A stretch of DNA of 64,000 bases, taken from assembly GCA_016235555.1 (NCBI GenBank), contig JACRKC010000088.1, positions 62,001 to 126,000 of the forward strand, in the 5' to 3' direction. The notes below the pieces were generated by a model. It did not search any database and was not told the origin of the DNA. It saw only the letters and a list, made by a program, of their open reading frames with translations. Source of the DNA: Verrucomicrobiota bacterium (GTDB taxonomy: Bacteria; Verrucomicrobiota; Verrucomicrobiia; Opitutales; Opitutaceae). This document shows, in pieces, positions 37,836-63,085 of this stretch; position 1 is the first letter of the stretch, and the number at the start of each line of letters is the position of its first letter. The position numbers and the translations under genes are program-made.

Positions 37836-40619
37836 TCAAGGCACTTCGTAGACTTCGACGATCGCGTAGCCGCCGGCGCCGACGGGGGTGATTTGCGCGG
37901 TGTAGGGGCCGGGCGGGAGCGTGATGAGGAGGATTGCGTCCTTGCTGGCGAGGTTGGCCACGGCGAAGGCGCCGACGCTGGCGCCGATGGAGCTGAGTTG
38001 CGTGTCGCCGCCCCAGTCGTTGTTGGCGGCGATGGTCTGCTGGGTCCCGTTCAAGAGCGCCAACTGCGGGTCCGCCATGGCGGTCGCGATGTTGAAGGGA
38101 GCGTTCGCGAGGGTGGGGCCGATGGCGCGGAGGAGGACGGTGCGCGCGGTGGTGCCGCCGACGTAGAAGCCGACGGTGAGCGAGCCGCCGGTCGCAATCT
38201 GCTTCAAGACGGAGACGTTGATGAGGCGGGGCGTCGTGGCGGTGACGCTTGCGGCGGAAGTGGCGTCGTAGAGTTCGGCGATGACCGTGCCGGCGGTCGG
38301 GCCGACACCGGAGACCTGGACGGTGTAGTTGCCGGACGCGAGCGCGGGCTGGAGGATGGCGGCGTCGAGCGACGCGGCGGACGAGTAGGCAAAGGCTCCG
38401 ACCTGCGCGAAGGCCGTGCCGAGGGCGGTGGTGCCACCCCAGTTGTCATTGGTGGCAACGGTGACGTTGGGCGAGGCGGTGGTGTTGATGAGCGTCATCG
38501 TGGGGTCGGCGAGAAACCCGGTGACGCCGAGTTGGACGAGTGACGGGCCGGCGGCGCGCGCGAGCAACGCCTTGGTCCCGGAGGTGCCGGTGCCGCCGAC
38601 GACCGTGCCCATGGTCATCGTTTCGCCGGCGACGAGCGGCGTGAGAATCGAGAGGTTGATCAGGCGGCCGAGGTCGGCGGCGGAGACGGCGACGACATTG
38701 AGCGCAGCGGTGCTGGTGGCGGTGCCGGAAGTGTTGGAGGCGATGACGGTGTAGTTGCCAGAGTCGGCGATCTGCGGGCTGGTCAGGACGAGCAGGCGGC
38801 TGGTGGCGCCGGCGATCTCGGTGCCGTCGCGTTGCCAGCGGTAGGTGGTGGCGTTGGTGGCGGTGGCACTGAAGACGACCGTGCTGCCGACGGCGACCGT
38901 CTGCGAGGCGGGCGGTGCGGTGAACGCGGGGGCGTTGGTGCCGTTGACGAAAAGAGTGGCGGTCGTGCTGGTGACCGAGCCGTTGGCGTTGGTCACGACG
39001 ACGGCGTAAGGGCCGGCGTCGGACGGTTGGGCACTGGAGATCGTGAGCGTGGCGCTGGTCGCGCCGCCGATCGCGAGGCCGCCTTTGGTCCATTGGTAGC
39101 CCGGGGTCGGAAAGCCGACGGCGGTGACCGACAGGTTTGCCGGTTGGTTGATCTGGGCGGTGGTGCTGGCGGGAGCAGTGACGATGGCGGGAATCGACTG
39201 CGTGCCCGGGAGGGTCAGCCGGTAGACGAGCACCATCGTGTCGATGTTGGGTGACGCGCTGTAGGACTTGCCGTCCTGGGTGCCGTTGCCGGTGGAGAAG
39301 TCGTTGTCGTTGCCGACGAGGAGAAAGTAGTCGTCGGGAGCAGCGGGATCGAGGGCGGACACGAGGGCGAGACTTTCCCAGCCGGCGGCGAGATTGTCGG
39401 AGCTGTCGTTGCTGCTGTTCTTGAGGCCGAATTTGTCGAGCTGCTGCTCGTCGTTGAGGTTGACGAGCACGGTCGCGGTGGCGGGCGTGATGTCGTTGGC
39501 GAGCACGCCGTTTTGTGCGAGCGGGAATGATGGGCTGTCGTAGCTGCGGCCCGCGATGTTGGTCGCCGTGCCGGTGTCGTAGAGAAGCACGGCGCGGTAG
39601 CCCGACTTGGTGGTGGTGGCGCCGCGGCCATTGCCATCGTGCGCGAGGACGAGAAACCGGCGGGAATCCAGCGTGACGAGTTCGTGGGCCTCGGCGACGT
39701 CCCGCGCGGCCGAGGTGAAGAGCGGCAGCGTCAGCACCCATTCGCCGGTCAGCACGGGCGCGGATGGCGTGGAGATGTCGTAGGCGAGGAGGCGGGTGTA
39801 GCGGTTCTGGCCGGAGCTGGTGTCCTGCCGCGTCGCGGCCTGCATGAGGGCGTAGAGCGTGCGGCTGTCGGCGGAGAGGGTGAGGCCTTCGAGGCCCTTG
39901 TTGTTGGCGCGTCCGGCGACCGGGTCGCTGGGCGAAACAGCGGGCTGACCGGCAGCGGGATTGTCGGAGGAGAAGGAGTCGGCGCCGTTGCGTTTCGGGA
40001 TCAAGGCCTCGGGGGGACGGACGACGCCCGTGAGGATCCCGGTGGCGCTGAAGCGGTGGATATAGGGACCGTATTCATCGCCGACGAAGAAGGTGCCATC
40101 GGGCATCACGGCCAGGCTCTCGGCATCGAGGGACAGGCTGCCGTTGAACGCCTGGGGCAGGCGCGGCGTGATGCCCGCGCGCAGGCCCGCGGTGGTGGCG
40201 CTGGGGTCCAGGCCGGTAAGCGAGCGACCATCGGCTTCCACGAGCAGGGTGGTTTCAGCGATCGATAGCGAAAGCTGATCCTGTTTCGAGGAGCCGTTGG
40301 CGTCCGGTTTGAAACTGAGGGCGAGCCGCTGGCGGCGGGCGCGGTAGTTCGTCGTCACGCCGGACTTGGTGTAGCCGCGGTCCGGCTGGGCATAGAGGGT
40401 GGCCGTGTAGGTGCCGCTGGAATTTTTCCGCCATGTGCCGGGCGCGACGGCGAGTCCCGACATCGAGCCGAATGTCTCGCCCAGCCGGTCCTTCTGATCG
40501 TGGTCGATGCGACCGACGCCGACGAGGCCCTGGTTCGTGGCCGATTGGGCCGGGCCGGAGGTGGCGCCCACCACGGCGGCGACGACGAACGCGAATCCGA
40601 GCGAGGTGACGCGAGACAT
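37836..40619 (-). CDS. Secreted phytase/esterase-like protein with Ig-like and C-terminal modules
   Basis: 927 residues from ATG 40619. A signal peptide (FAFVVAAVVGATSGPAQSA) is followed by an esterase-like-phytase beta-propeller domain (about 25-520; DAESLAVMPDGTFFVGDEYGPYIHRF, GLEGLTLSADSRTLYALMQ). Next come two Ig-like repeats (SYQWTKGG-type GYQWTKGGLAIGG, and YRWQRDGTEIAGATS), then two ~130-residue modules beginning RLINLSILT and RLINVSVLK and ending VEVYEVP. The same modules occur in the CotH and PhoD-like proteins in this window. The propeller may hydrolyse phosphate or carboxyl esters outside the cell; the activity is inferred from family likeness only. Confidence 0.78.
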   Translation of the reverse strand: MSRVTSLGFAFVVAAVVGATSGPAQSATNQGLVGVGRIDHDQKDRLGETFGSMSGLAVAPGTWRKNSSGTYTATLYAQPDRGYTKSGVTTNYRARRQRLALSFKPDANGSSKQDQLSLSIAETTLLVEADGRSLTGLDPSATTAGLRAGITPRLPQAFNGSLSLDAESLAVMPDGTFFVGDEYGPYIHRFSATGILTGVVRPPEALIPKRNGADSFSSDNPAAGQPAVSPSDPVAGRANNKGLEGLTLSADSRTLYALMQAATRQDTSSGQNRYTRLLAYDISTPSAPVLTGEWVLTLPLFTSAARDVAEAHELVTLDSRRFLVLAHDGNGRGATTTKSGYRAVLLYDTGTATNIAGRSYDSPSFPLAQNGVLANDITPATATVLVNLNDEQQLDKFGLKNSSNDSSDNLAAGWESLALVSALDPAAPDDYFLLVGNDNDFSTGNGTQDGKSYSASPNIDTMVLVYRLTLPGTQSIPAIVTAPASTTAQINQPANLSVTAVGFPTPGYQWTKGGLAIGGATSATLTISSAQPSDAGPYAVVVTNANGSVTSTTATLFVNGTNAPAFTAPPASQTVAVGSTVVFSATATNATTYRWQRDGTEIAGATSRLLVLTSPQIADSGNYTVIASNTSGTATSTAALNVVAVSAADLGRLINLSILTPLVAGETMTMGTVVGGTGTSGTKALLARAAGPSLVQLGVTGFLADPTMTLINTTASPNVTVATNDNWGGTTALGTAFAQVGAFAYSSAASLDAAILQPALASGNYTVQVSGVGPTAGTVIAELYDATSAASVTATTPRLINVSVLKQIATGGSLTVGFYVGGTTARTVLLRAIGPTLANAPFNIATAMADPQLALLNGTQQTIAANNDWGGDTQLSSIGASVGAFAVANLASKDAILLITLPPGPYTAQITPVGAGGYAIVEVYEVP

Positions 40620-40725
40620 CGGTGTCAGCTTTCGGGCAGGCCGGCCGGGGAGTCGAACGCAAAGCGTGCCGGGCGGTTTTTTCGGTTGCCTGCGTGGGAG
40701 GGCTTCGCGATGCATAGGGCGCAGG

Positions 40726-41580
40726 ATGCCCCTTGACTCCGCCCAACGCGATCGCCGCGAGATAAAGTATGTCATCAGCGAGCACACGGCCCTCGCGGTG
40801 CGGTCGTTCGTGAATTGCTACATCGAACCGGATGAGTGCGCCTTGGGGAAACTGGACAACTCCTACCCGGTGCACTCGCTCTATCTCGATTCGGACCGCC
40901 TGCACACGTTCTGGGCGGTGGAACTGGGCGAGCGGAACCGATTCAAGCTGCGCATCCGCTACTACGACGACGCGCCGGAGTCCCCGGTGTTTTGTGAGAT
41001 CAAACGCCGGATCAACGACGGCATCGTCAAACAGCGGGCCCGGCTGCGCCGCGACGCGATCGGTCCGCTGCTCGACGGCACGGCGCCCCGGCGCGAACAC
41101 CTCCACAAGTGGAAGCCGCAGGACTGGTCCGACCTGCTCGACTTCTGGGAGTTGGTGGAGCGCTTTCAGGCGGCGCCGCGGCTGCACAATTACTATATGC
41201 GCGAGGCCTATGTGAGCCGCGGCAAGTCCGACGTGCGGGTGACCATCGACCGCAATGTGCAGGTCGAACCGGAATTCGGCTCGGACCTGCTGGCCTCGAT
41301 GAAAAGCCCGCGCCTGATCTTCAACGGTGTCGTGATTCTGGAACTCAAGTATGTCGACCGCATGCCGGCTTGGATGATCGAGATGGTGCGCGGATTTGAT
41401 TTGAAACGTTCAAGCGCCGCCAAATATGTCACGGGCGTGGAAGCCCTGGGACAGAACCAAGTCGCCCGTCGACGCACCGGATTCGAGTGGGGACATGCCG
41501 TCACCAACGCAGCAACGAGCGCGCCGTGGCTCGATGCCTCGATCGATGTCCGCGGCTCGCTTGGTCCCAGCCACCGATGA
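40726..41580 (+). CDS. VTC-domain polyphosphate polymerase-like protein
   Basis: 284 residues from ATG 40726. The residues lining the VTC/triphosphate-tunnel active site are recognisable: RREIKY (E12, K14), LRIRYY (R76, R78), FCEIKRR (E91, K93), QRARL (R104, R106), YMREAY (R159), DVRVTID (R171, D175) and ILELKYVD (E206, K208). VTC enzymes polymerise the gamma-phosphate of ATP into polyphosphate. It is coupled by ATGA to DUF4956, its usual genomic companion. It is divergent from the phytase-like gene, with 106 bases between the starts. Confidence 0.86.
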   Translation: MPLDSAQRDRREIKYVISEHTALAVRSFVNCYIEPDECALGKLDNSYPVHSLYLDSDRLHTFWAVELGERNRFKLRIRYYDDAPESPVFCEIKRRINDGIVKQRARLRRDAIGPLLDGTAPRREHLHKWKPQDWSDLLDFWELVERFQAAPRLHNYYMREAYVSRGKSDVRVTIDRNVQVEPEFGSDLLASMKSPRLIFNGVVILELKYVDRMPAWMIEMVRGFDLKRSSAAKYVTGVEALGQNQVARRRTGFEWGHAVTNAATSAPWLDASIDVRGSLGPSHR

Positions 41581-42260
41581 ATGCCCTGCTAACCGGAGAT
41601 ATTGGCGCCGCCCCCACCAGCTTCCCGCTCGTCGGGTTGTCGCTGTTGCTCGCGTTCCTGTGCGGCCAGCTGTCGGCGTGGATCTACATCTGGACGCACA
41701 CGGGAATCTCCTACTCGCGTTCGTTCGTGGTGTCGCTGGTGGTGCTGCCGGTGCTGGTGGCGCTGGTGTTGTGCGTGATGTCGAACAACATCTTCACGGC
41801 CTTCGGCCTGATCGCCATCTTCGCGGTCGTGCGGTTCCGCAACGTGCTCCGCGACACGCTCGATACCTGCTACATCCTTTCGACGATCATCCTCGGCGCG
41901 GCGTGCGGCACGCAGAAATTCTCGTCGGCGGTGATCGGGCTGCTCGCGCTGTCGGCGTTGTTCCTGTTTTTGTGGATCACGGCCTCGGGCTCGCGGCATC
42001 GCTTCGACCTGATCCTCAATCTCAAATGGGCGCGGCCGGCGTCGGAACTCGGCGTGGTGGATCACGCGCTGGAACGACATTGCCTGCGCGTGCATATCGC
42101 GAACCAGCATTTTGCGCAGGGCGTCGAGGGCGGTGACCTGTCCTACCGGCTCCTGCTGCGCGATCCGAGGCGCGCGAGCGAACTGCTGAACGAACTGGCT
42201 TCGGTGCCCGGGGTGGAACGGGTGTCGAGCGTGCAGGCGGCTGACGAATCGGAGATCTAG
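41577..42260 (+). CDS. DUF4956 membrane protein
   Basis: 227 residues with about four hydrophobic segments (LSLLLAFLCGQLSAWIYIW, VVLPVLVALVLCVM, ILSTIILGAACGT, VIGLLALSALFLFLWI) and a soluble C-terminus with an ACT-like alternating pattern (RLLLRDPRRASELLNELASVPGVERV). RFRNVLRDTLDT after the second segment is characteristic of DUF4956. The family is regularly encoded next to VTC-domain and CotH genes. It probably works with the polymerase at the membrane, for example by guiding polyphosphate across it, but this is inference. Confidence 0.82.
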   Translation: MNALLTGDIGAAPTSFPLVGLSLLLAFLCGQLSAWIYIWTHTGISYSRSFVVSLVVLPVLVALVLCVMSNNIFTAFGLIAIFAVVRFRNVLRDTLDTCYILSTIILGAACGTQKFSSAVIGLLALSALFLFLWITASGSRHRFDLILNLKWARPASELGVVDHALERHCLRVHIANQHFAQGVEGGDLSYRLLLRDPRRASELLNELASVPGVERVSSVQAADESEI

Positions 42261-42263
42261 CCC

Positions 42264-43367
42264 ATGAACGACCCGCGCATTCTCGGCCCCATCCCGACAC
42301 CGCCCGCGCAACGCTGGCGCGAAATCCGGCTGCTGTATGTCCCGCGCGTGGTGTTCGCGGTCGGGGTGATCGTCGCCGCCTGGATGTGGAATCGCTGGGT
42401 GACGCCGGCGACGTTGATCGCCGAGGCCGAGGCGCCCCACGCCGAGGTGCGCACCTCGGCGGCCGGCACATTGACGGCGCTGAAAGTTGCGATCCTGCAG
42501 CCGGTGAAGGCGGGCGAGGTCGTGGCGCTGGTGGCACATGTGAGCCCGCAGGTGGCCGAGGCCACCCTCGCGGTCGTGCGCGCCGAGTTGCAGGAGATGG
42601 CGGCAACGATGGCGGGGGCGACGGACCGCCAGCGGGTGGCGCTGGAATTTGAGCGGCTGCAGATCGATTGGATGATGCGGCGCGTGGAACTGGCGGACTT
42701 GAACGGCAAGCTTCAGCAGACCGAGGCGGATCTGGCCCGCGCGGAGGCGTTGTTCAAACAAGGCCTGGTGACCGAGCAGTCGATCGCGCAATTGCGCGTG
42801 GCGAGGGATTCACTGGTCGCCCAACTGACGGAACAGACCCGGTTGGTGAATCACCTCGAACCGATTGTGCGCAGCCACGCGCCGAAGGATGAAAAGGACA
42901 GCAGCCTTGCGCCTCAAAGCGCGCTGTCGGCGGCCATCGGCGTGGCGGAAGCAAAGCTGAAGCTGGCGGAAGCGCAGTCGTTGCCGCAACCGCTGATCGC
43001 GCCGATCGATGGCGTGGTTTCGGTGGTGAGTCGTCGTCCGGGTGAAAATCTCGCCACGGGCGACAGCATCGTGCGGATCGCGTCGACCAAGCCTGAGCGG
43101 CTCGTCGGTTTCCTGCGCCAGCCGATCGCGATGGACATCAAGCCGGGCATGCCGGCGCAAATCCGGTCGCGCGGGCAAGGCCGTCAGCTCGCCCAGACCA
43201 CGGTTGCGGGTGTGGGCCCCGCGATGGAACCGATTTCGCTGTCGATGCAGGCGGCGCTGCGACTGCCGACCAACGTCGCCCCGGAATCGGGGTTGCGGGT
43301 GCACGTGGTGTTGCCGGCGGGCTTTCAGGTGAAGCCAGGCGAGATTGTCGACGTGGTTCTCCAGTGA
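42264..43367 (+). CDS. HlyD-like membrane-fusion/adaptor protein
   Basis: 367 residues. One membrane anchor (VVFAVGVIVAAWMW, about 29-43), then split lipoyl halves (GTLTALKVAILQPVKAGEVV and PLIAPIDGVVSVVSRRPGENLATGDSIV) around long coiled-coil helices (roughly 90-225). A beta-barrel end follows (FQVKPGEIVDVVL). It starts three bases after DUF4956 and so belongs to the same operon. Normally such adaptors serve a pump; here no pump is present, and it may instead link the VTC/DUF4956 unit to the outer envelope. Confidence 0.8.
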   Translation: MNDPRILGPIPTPPAQRWREIRLLYVPRVVFAVGVIVAAWMWNRWVTPATLIAEAEAPHAEVRTSAAGTLTALKVAILQPVKAGEVVALVAHVSPQVAEATLAVVRAELQEMAATMAGATDRQRVALEFERLQIDWMMRRVELADLNGKLQQTEADLARAEALFKQGLVTEQSIAQLRVARDSLVAQLTEQTRLVNHLEPIVRSHAPKDEKDSSLAPQSALSAAIGVAEAKLKLAEAQSLPQPLIAPIDGVVSVVSRRPGENLATGDSIVRIASTKPERLVGFLRQPIAMDIKPGMPAQIRSRGQGRQLAQTTVAGVGPAMEPISLSMQAALRLPTNVAPESGLRVHVVLPAGFQVKPGEIVDVVLQ

Positions 43368-43453
43368 CGCCGGAGTGCGGCGGGTGACTGGGCAAGGAAA
43401 TGGGTGAGGGCGGCGGGAGTGCGTCTCGCTCTCCTCATGTCGACCGCAGAGCT

Positions 43454-43515
43454 GTAGGAATGGTGGTTTTCAGTCGCCGGGTTCGGGCGGCGGCGCTTGA
43501 AAAGCGCCACTCCTG
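43454..43515. repeat. Imperfect inverted repeat with CTGTAG border
   Basis: GTAGGAATGGTGGTTTTC (from 43454) pairs with GAAAAGCGCCACTCCTGC (ending 43515), with several mismatches. The left border is CTGTAG as in the 16027 element. It lies between the convergent HlyD-like and CotH genes. Confidence 0.5.
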
Positions 43516-43598
43516 CCGCGGCGGCGCAAAGACGGAGATGCACGTGGGCGTGCGGAGATCACCCCCTCCCAGGCGCTGACTGCGGGCGGCGAATGCGC

Positions 43599-46500
43599 TT
43601 ACGGAACTTCGTAAACCTCGACTAAGGCCACGCCGGAACTGCCGCCGACTCCGCCGACTTGCGCGGTGTAGTTTCCCGGTTGGAGCGTGACGAGCAGCGC
43701 CGCGTCGCGGCTGTTGGCCGGCAGCGCAAATGCCCCGACCGCCGCGAATGCGGCGGACAAGGTGGCGCCGCCACCCCAGTCGTCGTTCGAGGCGGTGACA
43801 CTGGAGCCGGAAAACAGATCGATGCGGGGATTGGGCATCGCGCCCGCGACGTTGAATGGCGCGTCGGCCAGGGTGGGGCCGACCGCGCGCACCAGCACTT
43901 GCTTGGCGGCCGTGCCACCGATCACGAATCCCGCGGTGAGCGTCTCATCCGCGTCGATTTGCTTGAGCACCGAGACGTTGATGAGTCGCGGTGTCGTGGA
44001 GTCGAACTCGACGTTGGGGGTGGCATCGTAGAGTTCCGCGATGACCGTGCCGGTGCCGGTGCTGCCGCCCGTGACTTGCACGGTGTAGTTGCCGGCGGGC
44101 GTCCCGGTGCTGAAAATCGCGGCGTCCTTGGAAGAGTTGGCGGCGTAGGCGAACGCGCCGACCTTGGCGAAAGCCGCGGCGAGCGTGGCATCGCCATCCC
44201 AGTCGTTGTTGGAATCGATCGAGGTCTGGCCGCGGAAAAGTTCGAGCCGGGGGTCGGGGAGCGCTCCGGTCACGCCGAGCGCCGCGAGCGACGGCCCGCC
44301 GGCGCGGACGAGCAGGGGTTTCGGTCCGCCGGTGCCCTGGCCGCCGATGACGGTGCCGACGGTGAAGTTGCGCGTCGAACTCGTGATCGAGGTCAGGATG
44401 GAAAGGTTCGCGAGCCGGGCGATGGGGGAGTCGCCGGCGCGGGGGCCGGCCACGCGACCGCTCCAGCGACTGCTGGGCACCACGGTCGGATCGACGCCGG
44501 CGGCATAGCTGCGCGCCTGAAGATTGGTCGTATCGGCGAGGGTGACGCGCGTCGTCGACGTGCGGGCCTTGGGGGAAATCCCGCCGCCGATGAGCCGCGG
44601 GTCGGAGCCGTCGGTGGTGTAAATGAGCTGGGTGCCCGCCGCCGGAGTCAGGCTGAGGGATCCGCCGGCCGAAGTGAGGGTGGGTGGCGCGGTGAACTGC
44701 GCGTCGATCCACGCGGCGCGGGCGGTGAGCCAGGTTTTCATGTTGTTGATTTCGCCCTGCCAGTCGGCGCCGAAGCGGCTCGTGTTGTCCGGCCACCGCA
44801 CCGCGTCCCGCGTGGCGGCGGCGACCCCGATGCGGGAGGCGATGCTGTCAACCAGGGTCGTGAGGCTGGTGGTGGAGAATTCCGTGCTCCGCAGGCTGTG
44901 CCACCGGTCAATCCAAGCCTGCATGAACTCGGGATCGCGCGCCAGCACGGCGAACCAGCCGTCGGCCCAGAAATTCGTCGCGCCATCCGGACCGCTCCAC
45001 ACGTCGGTTCGTTTGGTGCGATAGTCGCCCCCGTCCATCGAGCGATCGTTGTCCCACATCGGGCCGGCGGAGAGGCGGCCCTCGCGTTCCTTGACCATGT
45101 AGGCGCTGCGGAAGAACGCGTCGACGTTGGACGTGAAAGTATTGAGCAGGTGGTGATCGACCCAGCTGCCGCGGTCGATGTAATCGAGGTAGGTGCGCTG
45201 GCTGAACCCGACGTTGTAATCCGCGTAGAGGGCGTTCTCGAAGCCTTGGAAATAGCCCTGGATGTAATCGCGCTGGGCTTTCGGCATCGCGGGGAGTTTG
45301 GGATGGGAGACCGTGATCGCGAACGGCAGGCCGGGCCAGGCGCGGGGCGATTGGAAGCTGAATTCGTCGGAGTCCGGCAAATCGCATTTGACCAGATAGC
45401 CGCCGGTGACGGTGCGCGCGCCCGTGTCACCCGAGCCGATCGCGGTGATGGCGACGCGTTTCGGGTCGACCCGGATCGGGTCCGTGAGGACGTAGATTCC
45501 GGCGTAGTCGGTGTTATCGAGATCGTCGCCGTAGCCGTTGATGAACAGCTCGACGAGCTGGGTGCGAGGAGCCCAGCGGCCGAGGCGGTTGCTCAACTCG
45601 TAGGTGAAGACGTTGTGGATCAGGGTGCGGTCGTAATTCCAGGGGCCGATCAGCGTCCAGTTGTCGAAGGCCGGCAGTCCGTAGAGGGGCTGGGGAATGG
45701 GGGTGCCGGCGGCGTCGGTGAGTTTGATCGAGTAGCTGCGCTTCGGAAAATCCGAGGACGAGGCGCCGCGGACGTTGACCGTGCCGAAGCTGAAAACGGA
45801 CGGGGCGGCCGTCACCGCCGTGCCGCCGGTCGAGGGACGTTCCCAGCAGTAAAACAGGGCGCTCTTTTCGCCGGTTTCCTTGGAGAGGGAGCCGACGCCG
45901 GCGAGGTCGATCATCAGCAACGGCATCTGGCTCGAAAACGTGTCGAGCCGGTCGGCGCCGGTATTGCCGATCCGGAGGTAGGGCACCGTGGTGGGGAAAC
46001 CGCGCTGGCTGCTGTCGGAGGAAAAGACCGTGGCCGTGACCAGCGAAGAGGCGGAGATCGTGACCGGCCCCGTATATTCGGAGGACGCCGCGGCCGGCTC
46101 GACCGGCAACGCTCCGGCCGTGCTGGTCGGGGATACGACATAGCGAATGCGTTGTCCGGCCGAAGCGCCGCTGAGCGTAAGCGTGAAACTCCCGACAAAG
46201 GGGCCCGCGGCGCGGGAGAAAGTCACGCGCTCGGTCGGCATCATCGCGGCGGCGCTGCCGTTTTGAGCTCCGGGTGTCGGCGAGCGAAAATAGCCGTGGC
46301 GGGCGGGTTGGCCGGCGACGGCGGGTTGGGCGAGTCCGTAGGAAATATCCTCGTATTGGACGGGAAATTTCGGCGCGAACTCGCTGGTGACCGTGGTGCC
46401 GTCGGGTTTGACGAGCGCGAGGTATTCACCCTCGGCTTCGATCGAGAAATTGGTGTGCAGCGGTTTCGTCGGGTCGCGGCGGTTCTTGCCCGAGGCGTGG

Positions 46501-46781
46501 ACGACCAGGTAGCCGCCGGCCGGCAGGATGACGGCCGGGAATTTCCAGCGATCCTTGTTGCCGGCGCTGTCCGTGAGATACCAGCCATCGAGGTCAACCG
46601 GCGCGGCATCAGGGTTGTGAATTTCGATCCAGTCGGAGTAGTCGCCGTCGGCATCGGCGAGGTTCTTTTTGTTGGCAGCGAGGAACTCGCTGATGATCGG
46701 GTCGGCGCAGAGCGTCGCCGTCATGCACCAGGTGAGGAAAAGCGCGCAACAACCACGCTGGAAGCGGAGAGTCCGGGTCAT
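43599..46781 (-). CDS. Secreted CotH-kinase protein with lamin-tail and C-terminal modules
   Basis: 1060 residues from ATG 46781 (further in-frame starts at 46814 and 46922 lie outside the signal peptide). Signal peptide FLTWCMTATLCA; lamin-tail domain (ISEFLAANKKNLADADGDYSD, then WIEIHNPDAAPVDLDGWYL); a chitobiase-like beta repeat; then CotH kinase: RGASSSDFPKRSYSIKL, GPWNYDRTLIHNVF, YAGIYVLTDPI and the metal segment GPMWDNDRSMDGGDY. Two C-terminal modules close with VEVYEVP, matching the phytase-like protein. CotH proteins phosphorylate serine or polyglutamate-type targets outside the cytoplasm. The gene faces the VTC operon. Confidence 0.85.
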   Translation of the reverse strand: MTRTLRFQRGCCALFLTWCMTATLCADPIISEFLAANKKNLADADGDYSDWIEIHNPDAAPVDLDGWYLTDSAGNKDRWKFPAVILPAGGYLVVHASGKNRRDPTKPLHTNFSIEAEGEYLALVKPDGTTVTSEFAPKFPVQYEDISYGLAQPAVAGQPARHGYFRSPTPGAQNGSAAAMMPTERVTFSRAAGPFVGSFTLTLSGASAGQRIRYVVSPTSTAGALPVEPAAASSEYTGPVTISASSLVTATVFSSDSSQRGFPTTVPYLRIGNTGADRLDTFSSQMPLLMIDLAGVGSLSKETGEKSALFYCWERPSTGGTAVTAAPSVFSFGTVNVRGASSSDFPKRSYSIKLTDAAGTPIPQPLYGLPAFDNWTLIGPWNYDRTLIHNVFTYELSNRLGRWAPRTQLVELFINGYGDDLDNTDYAGIYVLTDPIRVDPKRVAITAIGSGDTGARTVTGGYLVKCDLPDSDEFSFQSPRAWPGLPFAITVSHPKLPAMPKAQRDYIQGYFQGFENALYADYNVGFSQRTYLDYIDRGSWVDHHLLNTFTSNVDAFFRSAYMVKEREGRLSAGPMWDNDRSMDGGDYRTKRTDVWSGPDGATNFWADGWFAVLARDPEFMQAWIDRWHSLRSTEFSTTSLTTLVDSIASRIGVAAATRDAVRWPDNTSRFGADWQGEINNMKTWLTARAAWIDAQFTAPPTLTSAGGSLSLTPAAGTQLIYTTDGSDPRLIGGGISPKARTSTTRVTLADTTNLQARSYAAGVDPTVVPSSRWSGRVAGPRAGDSPIARLANLSILTSITSSTRNFTVGTVIGGQGTGGPKPLLVRAGGPSLAALGVTGALPDPRLELFRGQTSIDSNNDWDGDATLAAAFAKVGAFAYAANSSKDAAIFSTGTPAGNYTVQVTGGSTGTGTVIAELYDATPNVEFDSTTPRLINVSVLKQIDADETLTAGFVIGGTAAKQVLVRAVGPTLADAPFNVAGAMPNPRIDLFSGSSVTASNDDWGGGATLSAAFAAVGAFALPANSRDAALLVTLQPGNYTAQVGGVGGSSGVALVEVYEVP

Positions 46782-47051
46782 TTGGGCGAGGGGATGACTA
46801 GGGCGATGGACCATAAATGCAATCCTGCGTGCGCCGTCGGGGTGATTTTGGGCGCCGGGCGGGCCGGCGGTTTCCGGGATCACCGGATCAACCGTGCGAC
46901 GAACCGGGCCGGGTCGCACCACGGGCGGTTTCCGGTGTCAAACACCCGGTGCCCTTTTCCTGAGACGACTCGAATGCCAGGGCTGATTTCGCGCCGGACG
47001 GCCGTGGTCTTCGCGCTTGCCTCAGCGACCGGCGTGCCCATCTAAAAGCAA

Positions 47052-48815
47052 ATGTTTTTCTCCTCACATAGCCGCTCGTTTTCGATCTGGCTGTGCGCCT
47101 TGGCGGTCACCGTCGCCGGTGTTCGCGGGCAGGGGACGGTCTCGCCGTTTGTCAGCGGGGCGTGGAGCGGAAACGTCACTTCCAGCAGCGCAACGGTTTG
47201 CGTCCGGCTGGTCGAAGCGGGGCTGCGGGTCCGGCTGGCGGTGTCGGCCAGCGAGCAGCTGACCGCGCCGGTCTTTTCAGTCGGGCAGACGACGGGCGCC
47301 GGGACTGGCAACACCGTCAAACTCGACATCCGGGGGCTCCAGCCATCGACGACTTACTACTACGGCGTCGAGGTCGACGGCGTGGTGCGGACGGAGGCGA
47401 CTTCGCGGGGGCGGTTTCGCACGTTCCCGCTCGGGGCGGGCTCGTTCAAGATCGCCCTCATCGGCGATACGGACTACCGCGAGCCCGAGCATCGCGGCGC
47501 CGAGGCGGTGATCGCGGAACAACCGCTGCTCCTGCTCTACAACGGCGATCTGCACTACAGCGACCTCACGTCGACGACGCCGGAGGATTTCCGGATTCCT
47601 TACGACAACACGCTCAAGCATTCGGTGCTGGGCGCCATGCTGCGCAGTGCGCCGATCGCCTACATGTGGGACGATCACGATTTTGCCGGCGGCAATGATT
47701 CCGATGGCACCGCGGCCGGCTCCCTGGCGACCCGCACGGTATATCGGGAGTATGTGCCCCACTACCCGCTCCAAGTGGGGGACAATACCGTGGGACAAGC
47801 CTTCACGATCGGCCGCGTGCGGGTGATCATGACCGACCTTCGCACGGCCCAGGTGCCGGCGATCCTGCCCGAGTCGGCGACGAAGACCCGCATGGGCGCC
47901 GCGCAGAAGGCGTGGTTCAAACGAGAGCTGATCGATGCCCGCGATACAGGCTATCCGCTCATCCTCTGGGTGTGCACGGTGCCGTGGATTGCCCCGGCGA
48001 CGGTCGGGGACGATACGTGGGGCGGATATGCCACCGAACGCGCGGAGATCGCGGATTTCATCAAGGAGAACCGCATCCGCAATCTGGTCGTCTATGGCGG
48101 TGACATGCACGCGCTGGCTTACGACGACGGCACGCATTCGGACTACGCGACGGGCGGCGGGGCGCCTCTCTACGTGCTCCACGCGGCGCCGCTGGCGCGC
48201 GACTTCAACGTCAAGGGCGGGCCGTATTCGGCGGGACCGTATCTCGCCCGCATGCAATACGGCATCCTGGACATCATCGACAACGGCGGGGCATCGATCG
48301 TGTGCCGCTTCACCGGCAAACGCATCGACGAAGGAGCGAAATTCATGTTCCAGTTCACGGCATCGGCGAATGCGGTCGATCCCCGGATCCAGCCGACGGC
48401 GGAGAACAGCGCGGACCGCGCGCTCATCAATATTTCGGCCCGGTCGCGGCTGGCCACGCCGGGCGACAGCTTCATCATCGGCTTCGTCGTGGGCGGTCGT
48501 TCGCAACGCACGATCCTGCTGCGCTCGGTGGGGCCGTCATTGTCGGCGTTCGGGGTGACGGATGCGCTGGCGCGGCCCTCCATGATTTTGCAGCGGGGTA
48601 ACACGGTCGTGGCGACGAACGACGACTGGGGGCTGAGCGGGGCGGATCGGTTGAACGCCGCCTTCGATCGGGCCGGGGCCTTTCGCTACGCGAGCGCGAC
48701 GAGCCGTGACGCGGCGATTTTCATGCCGCTGGAACCGGGGGCCTACACGCTGCAAACGGTAAGTGCCAACGGCGGCACCGGCATGGTGCTCGTCGAGGTC
48801 TACGAAGTGCCGTGA
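47052..48815 (+). CDS. PhoD-like secreted phosphatase with C-terminal module
   Basis: 587 residues. Signal peptide SIWLCALAVTVAGVRG; N-terminal fibronectin-like strand domain (GLQPSTTYYYGVEVDG); PhoD-like metallophosphatase core with IGDTDYREP, YNGDLHYSDL, MWDDHDFAGGND, and GGDMHALAYDDG as metal-binding segments. One C-terminal module starts near residue 455 (ALINISARSR) and ends VEVYEVP. PhoD enzymes hydrolyse phosphate mono- and diesters in the envelope. It is divergent from the CotH gene. The 270-base gap between the two starts carries no recognised Pho box. Confidence 0.84.
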   Translation: MFFSSHSRSFSIWLCALAVTVAGVRGQGTVSPFVSGAWSGNVTSSSATVCVRLVEAGLRVRLAVSASEQLTAPVFSVGQTTGAGTGNTVKLDIRGLQPSTTYYYGVEVDGVVRTEATSRGRFRTFPLGAGSFKIALIGDTDYREPEHRGAEAVIAEQPLLLLYNGDLHYSDLTSTTPEDFRIPYDNTLKHSVLGAMLRSAPIAYMWDDHDFAGGNDSDGTAAGSLATRTVYREYVPHYPLQVGDNTVGQAFTIGRVRVIMTDLRTAQVPAILPESATKTRMGAAQKAWFKRELIDARDTGYPLILWVCTVPWIAPATVGDDTWGGYATERAEIADFIKENRIRNLVVYGGDMHALAYDDGTHSDYATGGGAPLYVLHAAPLARDFNVKGGPYSAGPYLARMQYGILDIIDNGGASIVCRFTGKRIDEGAKFMFQFTASANAVDPRIQPTAENSADRALINISARSRLATPGDSFIIGFVVGGRSQRTILLRSVGPSLSAFGVTDALARPSMILQRGNTVVATNDDWGLSGADRLNAAFDRAGAFRYASATSRDAAIFMPLEPGAYTLQTVSANGGTGMVLVEVYEVP

Positions 48816-60115: not shown

Positions 60116-63085
60116 TTATTGGAAACTGGTTTCGAGCAAGACGAGCCGGCGGTCGCCGCGGATGCGGGTTTCGACGGTGGTGGTTTCGGCGGCGAGCGGG
60201 ACGGTCACGACGGCGGTCGCACCTGGTGCGAGTTCGGCGGCGACTTCGCGACCGTTGGCGGAGATGCGGACGGTGAGTTTCGCGTCGCTGGGGTTGAAGA
60301 GGCGGTGGTTCGCCTGCGCTTTGCCGGATGGGATGCGACACCAGAAGCGACCCTCGCCTTCGCTGACGCCGAGGTTGGTCAGCGCCTCGGGCTCGTCGTA
60401 GATTGCGTCGGGATTTTTGGCGCGGAGGTTGGCGCCGGTTTTATTTTCGACGTCGGGCGCGGGGGTGCCGCTCCAGCTGCGGTGCGAGTAGGGACCGAAC
60501 GGGCGGCGGCCGAACGGCACGTAGACGATGCCGGGCCGGCTGTTCCAGCCACCGGGGCCGCCGGCGAATTGATGACCCTCGGGGGTGACGGTGACCTTGA
60601 TCGAGTCGCGGTAGCTACCGGTGAGTGCGGGGCGGGAGTTGAGCATGAGGCCGCTGTTGATGCCGGTGAGCACACCGCGCTCGGTCTCGTAGTCGCCCCA
60701 CACGATCGGGGCTTCGATCAACACGTGGCGCTCGTGGCCTTCGCGCTGCGTGGCGTAGGCGACGAGATTGCGCAGCAGGCGGTCGGCGATCGGATCGAGG
60801 CCGGCGCGCGCGACGAGATCGAAGCCGCTGAGCAAGACGGAGCCGTCGCCGTTCGGGGGGAAGAACTCCGCGAGCGCGAGGCCTTCAAGGCCGACGCTGT
60901 AGTTGGCGAGCACGGCGGTGTGGCGGAGGGCGGACTTGTCGGTGAGCACGAAGCCGTCGCTCACGGGGTAAATGCGGGGCAGACCTTTCTTCGTTTCGTC
61001 CCAGCCGGTGTAGTCGGACCACACCTGGAGGCGGCGGCGATCGATGCCGGCGAACAGGGGGTGATCGGGGCGCTCGGGGTTGACGTTGATGCTGTCGCGC
61101 GATGGGCGGGGCGGCGGCGGATAAGCGGGATCGTCGACGCTGGAGGAGGGAAGACGGACGGCGGCGGGGAGCAGTTTGGCGAGCGCGTCGGCGGCGGTGC
61201 TCGGTTGGCGGAGGATCACGAGCCGGCCGCCGCGGCGCGTGAAGTCGACGAGCGCGGCGGACTGGGTGGCGTCGAGTTTCGCCACGGCCTCTTCGCCGAT
61301 GACTATGGGTGCGGCGGGGTCGAGCGGGCTCGTGAAGGAGAGGGAGGCGGCGGCGAGGCCGAGTTGGGTGAACGCGCGCTGGGTCGTGCCGACCGGATCG
61401 ATGAGGCGGACGGCGGTGCGCGGCGCGGCGCCGGCGCGGGCGAAGTCGGACGCGGCGACGAAGAGGTCGATTTGGTTTTCGGAGAGGGTGCGTTCGCCAG
61501 AGGTGAGCCGACCCCAGAGATGGTAAGAGCCGGTCGCGAGCGACGCGGGCAATTTGAGAGTGAGCGGGCGGCGCGCGGTGGCGTAGTAGGCGACGTCGAG
61601 GCCGGTGAGTTTTCCGGCGGCGACGGTGCGCTGCGTCGAGTCGCGCACCTCGAAGTCGAGCGTGGCGCCGCGGAGGTCGGCGGCGGTGTCGGAGTCGTTG
61701 ACGAGGTGCGCGACCGGGTGGAGTTCGGCGCCGGCGTAGACCTGCGGCGTGTAGAGTTCCCAGCTGAGGAGCACGGGCTGGTAGGAGGCGCGGAGTTGAT
61801 CGGCGGCGGGCTTCGGGCTCATCTCGGCGAAGCTCGTGATGTCGTGCCAGCGGTTGAAGAGAATCGTGAAGGGGAAGACGCCGGAGAGCTCGTTGTTGAG
61901 CGGGCGGAGACGGCGGAAGAGTTCGGTGGCCTGGCGGATGGTGAACGACTGGTGGGCGAACCCGAGCGGGCCCTGCTCGGCGGTGGGCGCGTGGCCGAGC
62001 CAGTTGAGTTGCGAGACGGGGTTCTTGTGATTCGGCGTGAGGTTGGTGCGGCCGTCGGGGCCGTTGTAGTTGCCGACGCACTCGGTGAACGTGAGGGGCT
62101 GCACCTTGTCGGGGGCGACGATGCGCTCGTTGTCGCGCAGGTGGAGGAACGTGAACGGTGACTGGTAATACCAGCCCCAGTAGCGGTGCAGATCGTTGAT
62201 CTCGCCGACGCGGCCGTAGCCGTAGCCGGCGTTGGCGATGTAGAGGCGCGTGGGGTCCCACGGTTGCAGGTCGTGGTGGATGGCGCCGAGGAGTTTGTCC
62301 CAGCGCGCGCCCGCGGTGCCTTCGCCGGCGACCTCGTTGGTGAGCGCGTAGACGATCAGGCTCGGATGCTGGACGAACGGGTGAAACTTGGTCTCGCGAA
62401 ACCACTCCGCGGAGGCGGCGGGATCGGCGGTGGAGCCCTTGCCGTTGATGCTGCCGCCGTAGTTGCCGCCGAAGACCAACATGCCGAGTTCGTCGCAGAC
62501 GTCGAACCACGTCTCGTCGTCGGGGATGCGGATGATGTTCACGTGCAGGCCGAGCAGGTAGCGCACATAGTCGACCGCGAATTCGCGGCTGCGCTCGAGT
62601 TTCTCGGGGACGCCACGATTGGGCGGATTGATGGCGAGGCCGCGGAGGAAAAACGGCCGGCCGTTCAAGTGGAGCTGGCCGCCCTGCGTGGTGAACGAGC
62701 GGAAGCCGACGCGCTCCTCGGTGGTTTCGCGGTGGCCGGCGCGATCGGCGAGATCAAGGGCGACGCGGTAGAGCACGGGCGAAATCGGCTCCCAGCGGGT
62801 GACCTTGAGGCCGGCGAGGGAGACGCGAGTGACGCCGTTTTCAGGCCACGGGCGGACGAGCTTGGAGTCGAGCGCGAGGCGTTGCGGCGGCTCGCGTCCG
62901 TCGATGCGCGAGAGCACGAGGGCGCTCGCCGCCCAGTCGGGATCGACGTGGCTGGCGAGGCGCACGTCGACCGTGAGCGTGTCGGTCGTCGTGAAGAACC
63001 AGGTTTTTTCGACGAGTGCGGCGGAGAGGGATGAGGCCAGCGTGGCGCCGAGCGCGACGACGGCATTAAGGCGGAGCGATCTCAT
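60116..63085 (-). CDS. GH2-like glycoside hydrolase with extra C-terminal domains
   Basis: 989 residues with signal peptide. An Ig-like GH2 middle domain (about 25-130) precedes the barrel: FFLRGLAINPP, acid/base in YALTNEVAGE (E251), and the nucleophile candidate E335 in LTFTECVGNYNG. The usual N-terminal jelly-roll of GH2 is missing. The long C-terminal part includes a GATase/ThuA-like region (PIVIGEEAVAKLD, FTRRGGRLVILRQP, about 590-740) followed by a beta-rich end. It probably trims galactosides or uronides in the periplasm. The combination is atypical, so the GH2 label is approximate. Confidence 0.75.
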   Translation of the reverse strand: MRSLRLNAVVALGATLASSLSAALVEKTWFFTTTDTLTVDVRLASHVDPDWAASALVLSRIDGREPPQRLALDSKLVRPWPENGVTRVSLAGLKVTRWEPISPVLYRVALDLADRAGHRETTEERVGFRSFTTQGGQLHLNGRPFFLRGLAINPPNRGVPEKLERSREFAVDYVRYLLGLHVNIIRIPDDETWFDVCDELGMLVFGGNYGGSINGKGSTADPAASAEWFRETKFHPFVQHPSLIVYALTNEVAGEGTAGARWDKLLGAIHHDLQPWDPTRLYIANAGYGYGRVGEINDLHRYWGWYYQSPFTFLHLRDNERIVAPDKVQPLTFTECVGNYNGPDGRTNLTPNHKNPVSQLNWLGHAPTAEQGPLGFAHQSFTIRQATELFRRLRPLNNELSGVFPFTILFNRWHDITSFAEMSPKPAADQLRASYQPVLLSWELYTPQVYAGAELHPVAHLVNDSDTAADLRGATLDFEVRDSTQRTVAAGKLTGLDVAYYATARRPLTLKLPASLATGSYHLWGRLTSGERTLSENQIDLFVAASDFARAGAAPRTAVRLIDPVGTTQRAFTQLGLAAASLSFTSPLDPAAPIVIGEEAVAKLDATQSAALVDFTRRGGRLVILRQPSTAADALAKLLPAAVRLPSSSVDDPAYPPPPRPSRDSINVNPERPDHPLFAGIDRRRLQVWSDYTGWDETKKGLPRIYPVSDGFVLTDKSALRHTAVLANYSVGLEGLALAEFFPPNGDGSVLLSGFDLVARAGLDPIADRLLRNLVAYATQREGHERHVLIEAPIVWGDYETERGVLTGINSGLMLNSRPALTGSYRDSIKVTVTPEGHQFAGGPGGWNSRPGIVYVPFGRRPFGPYSHRSWSGTPAPDVENKTGANLRAKNPDAIYDEPEALTNLGVSEGEGRFWCRIPSGKAQANHRLFNPSDAKLTVRISANGREVAAELAPGATAVVTVPLAAETTTVETRIRGDRRLVLLETSFQ

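Follow-up and report, generated by a model that had tools for sequence, protein, structure and literature searches.

The window examined here is the whole stretch of 64,000 nucleotides (positions 62,001 to 126,000 of contig JACRKC010000088.1) from a verrucomicrobial genome of the family Opitutaceae. It encodes three proteins with signal peptides, A, B and C, which carry different principal domains and end in copies of one module of about 130 residues. The features of the locus are as follows:

37836-40787, minus strand: protein A, with a signal peptide, a phytase-like domain (PF13449), two Ig domains and a tandem module pair; likely start 40619
37842-38231, minus strand: A module 2, type T2, closing the protein with VEVYEVP (profile E 2.3e-44)
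38262-38666, minus strand: A module 1, type T1, ending AELYDA (profile E 8.7e-42, and alignment)
about 40726-41580: VTC-domain protein
41547-42260: DUF4956
42264-43367: HlyD-like gene, between the genes for A and B
43599-46922, minus strand: protein B, with a signal peptide, a lamin-tail domain, CotH (PF08757) and a tandem module pair; likely start 46814 or 46781
43605-43991, minus strand: B module 2, type T2, closing the protein with VEVYEVP (profile E 3.3e-52); modelled as the single module
44022-44420, minus strand: B module 1, type T1 (profile E 3.5e-45); included in the pair model
47052-48815, plus strand: protein C, with a signal peptide, PhoD_N and PhoD domains (PF16655, PF09423) and one module (Pfam and profile)
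48420-48809, plus strand: the single module of C, closing the protein with VEVYEVP (profile E 7.2e-47)

For A and B, translation probably begins downstream of the listed GTG codons; ATG codons with a signal-peptide-like start lie at 40619 for A and at 46814 or 46781 for B. Between 36499 and 52524 the window has a phosphorus and polymer theme, with phytase-like, CotH, PhoD, heparinase/alginate-lyase-like and sulfatase genes.

The initial annotation described two modules at the end of A and of B and one at the end of C, and profile searches placed all five. It also had VEVYEVP at the exact C-terminus, and in all three proteins the motif directly precedes the stop codon. In A and B, AELYDA closes the first module and VEVYEVP closes the second only. 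The likeness is not a matter of chance, because a tblastn search with the C module alone recovered the other four, with E values of 2.8e-26 (B module 2), 3.7e-23 (B module 1), 5.2e-24 (A module 2) and 1.5e-19 (A module 1). Thirty columns are invariant across the alignment of the five modules, and no Pfam model lies over the module in A, B or C. The terminal module is thus shared by unrelated catalytic domains, phytase-like in A, CotH in B and PhoD-like in C, as had been noted from the sequence at the outset.

These three proteins are a small part of the family within their own genome. The tblastn search with the C module found at least 150 copies there (150 of the 175 candidates scored), and a profile seeded with the five window modules and iterated over the stretches around the tblastn matches located at least 155 modules in 85 ORFs, among them A, B and C. 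Exactly two modules, spaced by 2–13 residues, were present in 70 of the 85 ORFs, and none of the 85 had three. In 60 ORFs a pair ends within 10 residues of the C-terminus, a count that includes L057 (G000:C113:41992-42765), in which an in-frame stop lies inside the second module. A single module ends within the same distance in 14 more, and in one ORF (L018) a single module is followed by 46 residues. The remaining 10 ORFs carry an internal pair, followed by 230–804 residues. Module genes also cluster side by side, for example at 76–116 kb of contig C30 and 61–71 kb of contig C53 in G000.

The search for partner domains reached at most about 1,150 residues ahead of the modules and, where the pair is internal, the same distance behind it; the partners given here come from the 25 commonest Pfam families in each of two batches, out of 50 and 61. 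They include Ig domains, NHL and DUF5122 propellers, CotH, lamin-tail domains, subtilases and pectinesterases, together with PL8 lyase, sulfatase, serpin and DUF1800. The Ig family PF13927 was present in 18 of 45 and 23 of 48 carrier segments in the two batches. Among the internal carriers, the pair lies directly behind the signal peptide in three DUF1800 proteins and upstream of a serpin or a pectate lyase in others; the order pair-CHRD-DUF1800 recurs in G302, a genome of another family (L167). In five large ORFs the pair stands ahead of Ig-like and EF-hand-like parts, as judged by eye and, for L073, by Pfam. Five of the six CotH ORFs of the genome bear a module, and the sixth has no module and, by eye, a signal peptide; two of the four PhoD ORFs bear one. 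At two places in the genome, the window (43599-48815) and contig C60 of G000 (L040), a single-module PhoD gene adjoins a divergent, pair-bearing CotH gene.

A second tandem C-terminal unit, of about 56 residues and EF-hand/dockerin-like, was seen in L068, L071, L073, L074 and L052, with 26 matches in G000 and weak matches to EF-hand and dockerin profiles. In L068, L071 and L073 its sequence, GKLNLAELLRVIELYN...GTEDGFAPGP, runs directly to the stop codon. The longest ORF that holds the unit has 6826 residues, some of these ORFs are cut by contig ends, and five of them also hold an internal module pair.

Within the pair, first and second modules mostly fall into separate groups, with 19 changes on the tree, whereas 200 shuffles needed 46 on average and never fewer than 36. 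The division into T1 and T2 is not clean, since modules 1 and 2 of one protein are as alike (mean identity 44%) as second modules are among themselves (44%; first modules, 41%). Distances among first modules correlate with those among second modules across 68 proteins (r 0.37, versus 0.19 for the best of 999 permutations). Judged from these comparisons, the pair appears mostly to travel as a unit, with some mixing or homogenisation.

The end of the terminal module is itself distinctive. The last residue is proline in 58 of 73 C-terminal carriers (the 74 C-terminal ORFs less L057, whose second module is broken by the stop), compared with 1 of 26 further ORFs in the window and 15 of 163 ORFs of relatives, both chosen mechanically as controls. 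Counted from a conserved tyrosine, proline occupies position Tyr+3 in 56 of 72 terminal modules, but in none of the 10 internal second modules or the 63 first modules. The tyrosine motif is missing from one of the 73 terminal and 7 of the 70 first modules; L018, which is neither C-terminal nor internal, was among 11 non-terminal rows and lacks the motif, leaving 10. Terminal proline is a real positional signature, and its restriction to the end of the protein leaves room for the free C-terminus to have some function. One possibility is that the terminal [VL]P may protect an exposed last strand from carboxypeptidases or tail-specific proteases. Elsewhere the signature is weaker: 11 of 22 carriers from four other genomes end in proline, including 5 of 13 from the two other families among them (22 of 25 rows, with two internal modules and one cut at the end of its stretch left out).

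We also modelled the fold of the module. AlphaFold2 predicted the single module (B module 2) with a pLDDT of 96.8 and a pTM of 0.90, and the pair of B with a pLDDT of 96.3 and a pTM of 0.92. The module model has eight strands and two helices of at least four residues, and in this predicted structure the fold is that of the PPC/CBD β-sandwich. Its matches included the C-terminal part of the subtilase Tk-SP (3afg; VIA Z 10.1, 100 residues, 3.5 Å), the collagen-binding domain of ColG (1nqj; VIA Z 9.5, 91 of 96 residues, 2.6 Å), 5iku (VIA Z 9.2, 91 residues, 2.0 Å) and the PPC domain of a B. anthracis collagenase (5sv5; VIA Z 9.2, 89 residues, 2.1 Å). Because other β-sandwiches reach similar VIA Z scores (PliG 9.6, LipL32 9.3, a GOLD domain 8.9 and an enterotoxin C-terminal domain 8.4), the case for common descent rests on sequence as well. 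For the whole pair the top Foldseek match was tandem ColG s3a-s3b (5iku; E 1.4e-8), but with a TM score of 0.28, and its best VIA Z was 7.6, below that of the single module. Thus, in the models, the individual domains match ColG s3a-s3b and the arrangement of the two does not clearly do so; with rival sandwiches and a lower score for the pair, fold alone settles neither descent nor pair arrangement. Matches of the pair to viral structures in Foldseek had low TM scores and were left unused.

By profile the module shades weakly into the NCBIfam family DVUA0089 (NF038127), which matched 37 of 65 modules at E ≤ 1, the best at 5.6e-8. Its cut-off of 29 bits was passed by three of ten full or partial proteins (L161, 44.6; L187, 34.3; L188, 29.3), all from genomes other than the window's own; in the window, B scored 25 and C 13.2, and A gave no match. 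Pfam PPC (PF04151) matched 4 of the 65 modules of the genome-wide set at E ≤ 1 (best 0.0036), and in A, B and C it gave no match at E ≤ 1 nor one at its gathering score. A search of PDB sequences with the module profile returned nothing credible (best E 0.53). The module is PPC-like by its predicted fold and, by profile, no member of Pfam PPC.

The module is patchily distributed among Opitutaceae, being present in 38 of 61 sampled genomes, including the window's own, at E ≤ 1e-5. Two genomes of one genus in this sample gave 16 matches (G058) and none (G015). Across a sample of the phylum, modules were detected in 14 of 288 genomes at E ≤ 1e-8, 12 of them in the same family and 2 in other families of the same class. 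Copy numbers per genome are lower bounds, with at most 69 matches scored per genome in the family sample and 14 in the phylum sample. The titles of the best 80 of 559 relatives name Opitutaceae, Opitutae, Opitutia, Opitutus and unclassified Verrucomicrobia or Verrucomicrobiota; we did not count their C-termini as evidence, because the search pattern favoured ends of the VEVYEVP type. Plasmids gave no module match, and none of 20 pattern matches in viral contigs was a relative. Three genomes (G040, G227 and G023) have one module protein each at E ≤ 1e-5. In those of G040 and G227 (L190 and L191) the chain runs on from the pair through a Gly/Ser-rich part, the residues APAPW and a hydrophobic segment to a basic end, a tail that looks by eye like a C-terminal anchor; no NCBIfam model of such a kind matched it at E ≤ 0.1.

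Taken together, our preferred reading, to which we give a probability of about 55%, is that the module is a mobile extracellular accessory domain of PPC/CBD type, a lineage-specific branch of that β-sandwich as far as its predicted fold tells, usually deployed as a fixed tandem pair, which binds a common ligand and retains its carriers. Carriers would leave the cell via Sec with an N-terminal signal peptide. The pair would then bind a ligand that all of them share, most likely some polymer belonging to the envelope or matrix of the cell itself, and carriers as unrelated as enzymes, propellers and Ig-repeat proteins would thereby stay close to the cell. The spread of 155 modules over 85 ORFs, with varied partners and with placements that range from directly after the signal peptide to the last residues of the protein, is the behaviour of a mobile accessory domain. 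Of the common surface-anchoring or secretion signal proposed in the initial annotation, the idea of common binding and retention stands as the best inference; that of secretion or sorting is not supported, given the internal pairs and the modules in genomes in which no exosortase was detected.

Precedents for binding come from relatives in fold. In protease E495 both C-terminal PPC domains bind proteins, the form that keeps one PPC domain has higher affinity for and efficiency on proteins, and binding depends on two Asp residues and aromatic residues (PMC3327674). The PPC domain of VhaC binds collagen (PMC8799719), and those of MCP-03 are reported to be dispensable for secretion (PMC3327674). 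A resemblance in predicted fold does not in itself show binding, and the position-specific terminal proline, being more than a plain binding domain needs, counts against our preferred reading.

The precedents for binding also fit a module that binds the external substrate of each enzyme, in CBM or CBD manner, and serves the degradation of outside polymers: collagen and other proteins are ligands of its PPC and CBD relatives (PMC3327674, PMC8799719), and the carriers include pectinesterases, subtilases, a pectate lyase and a PL8 lyase. We consider this unlikely. Many carriers show no clear sign of degrading polymers (CotH, PhoD, phytase-like, serpin, NHL and DUF5122 propellers, DUF1800), and because the carriers act on such different things, we prefer a common self-ligand to a nutrient substrate; the cell's own envelope or matrix is the more likely ligand.

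Rather less likely is a C-terminal sorting or secretion signal with a dedicated machine, in the manner of the T9SS C-terminal domain, to which internal copies would be exceptions. It would account for the module ending within 10 residues of the C-terminus in 74 of 85 ORFs (one broken by a stop), for a single tail common to many unrelated carriers and for the position-specific proline that closes 58 of 73 of them, and the HlyD-like gene between A and B could be read in its favour. However, the proposal of a terminal secretion signal had named internal modules as the finding that would speak against it, and in 10 of 85 ORFs the pair is internal, in some near the N-terminus and in one such order that recurs in another family. 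A dedicated machine also sits poorly with genomes in which only one module protein was seen (G040, G227 and G023), two of which place an apparent anchor-type tail of its own behind the pair, and with a CotH paralogue that has a signal peptide, by eye, and no module. Terminal proline drops to about half or less of the carriers elsewhere (11 of 22 and 5 of 13). SprA_N (PF14349) was found in 0 of 288 genomes, the window's own included, in a search that ran without a working positive control.

Of the linked machinery suggested at the outset, exosortase (PF09721) was detected in 57 of the 61 family genomes, and the four others all have modules: G018, G022, G038 and G054, with 29, 3, 44 and 53 matches, respectively. 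A missed gene is possible in single cases, because these genomes are 96, 86, 94 and 94% complete. Exosortase is evidently not needed, and we rejected exosortase dependence.

Signal-peptide-like starts offer another explanation of export. By a third heuristic, with a looser cleavage motif, they were present in 67 of 84 module ORFs (L010, whose 5' end is cut at the edge of its 20-kb stretch, being omitted) versus 12 of 68 stretches taken from the middle of these ORFs, but also in 13 of 24 other window ORFs. A first heuristic did not discriminate, being positive for 63 of 85 module ORFs but also for 14 of 24 other ORFs of the window, and a stricter second one was positive in 45 of 84 module ORFs. 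Module ORFs therefore have signal-like starts, but not demonstrably more often than their neighbours in a window that is rich in exported and membrane proteins by Pfam.

A variant that asks for neither T9SS nor exosortase, and which we hold to be doubtful, is that the free strand ending [VL]P is itself recognised: some receptor, translocase or processing enzyme in Opitutaceae would read the terminal module and so bring dozens of exported, otherwise unrelated proteins to the cell surface. The confinement of proline to the free end (58 of 73 carriers, and no internal second or first module) would fit it. Carriers with internal pairs would have to reach the surface by other tails, either the EF-hand-like pair ending GFAPGP or a hydrophobic tail. 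Finally, it is very unlikely that the module is an appendage for folding or stability, or that it is cut off after export like a propeptide, as reported for several PPC-bearing proteases. In favour of this, E495 loses one or both PPC domains on maturation, and in MCP-03 the PPC domains affect thermostability (PMC3327674). However, the module also stands between domains and ahead of catalytic domains, where its removal would cut the protein, and proteases are few among the identified partners.

Retention on the cell or in its matrix, if that is what the module does, would account for the way these bacteria hold on to enzymes that handle polymers and phosphorus. With at least 85 ORFs in this genome and 38 of 61 sampled family genomes carrying it, a name for the module would bring annotation to much of an exoproteome that is poorly understood. 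As a sign that something acts on the free C-terminus, the position-specific terminal proline is inexpensive and open to test. In the literature searched, whose hits included PMC3237569 on GlyGly-CTERM, we found no description of the module: the fold is known, but that literature does not describe this branch of it, how extensively it is used, its pairing of two types or its terminal proline.

Several known systems resemble the module in part. One C-terminal tail on many proteins is common to PEP-CTERM/exosortase systems and the module. However, A, B and C end in VEVYEVP with no sorting motif, membrane segment or basic tail, and exosortase was not detected in four of the genomes in which the module occurs. 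The T9SS C-terminal domain is likewise common to many unrelated secreted proteins, but the module need not be terminal, its pair being internal in 10 of 85 ORFs. The model of the T9SS type A C-terminal sorting domain (TIGR04183) matched 1 of 65 modules, at E 0.077. The DVUA0089 family shows weak but broad profile similarity, with the window copies below its cut-off. The closest likeness is to the PPC domain and the clostridial collagenase CBD, in the predicted fold (VIA Z 9.2–10.1) and in the tandem C-terminal use seen in E495 (PMC3327674) and ColG (5iku). In contrast to these, the module is larger, at about 130 residues versus 96–105 in 1nqj and 5sv5, it frequently ends in an exact C-terminal [VL]P, and it is carried by 85 ORFs of a single genome.
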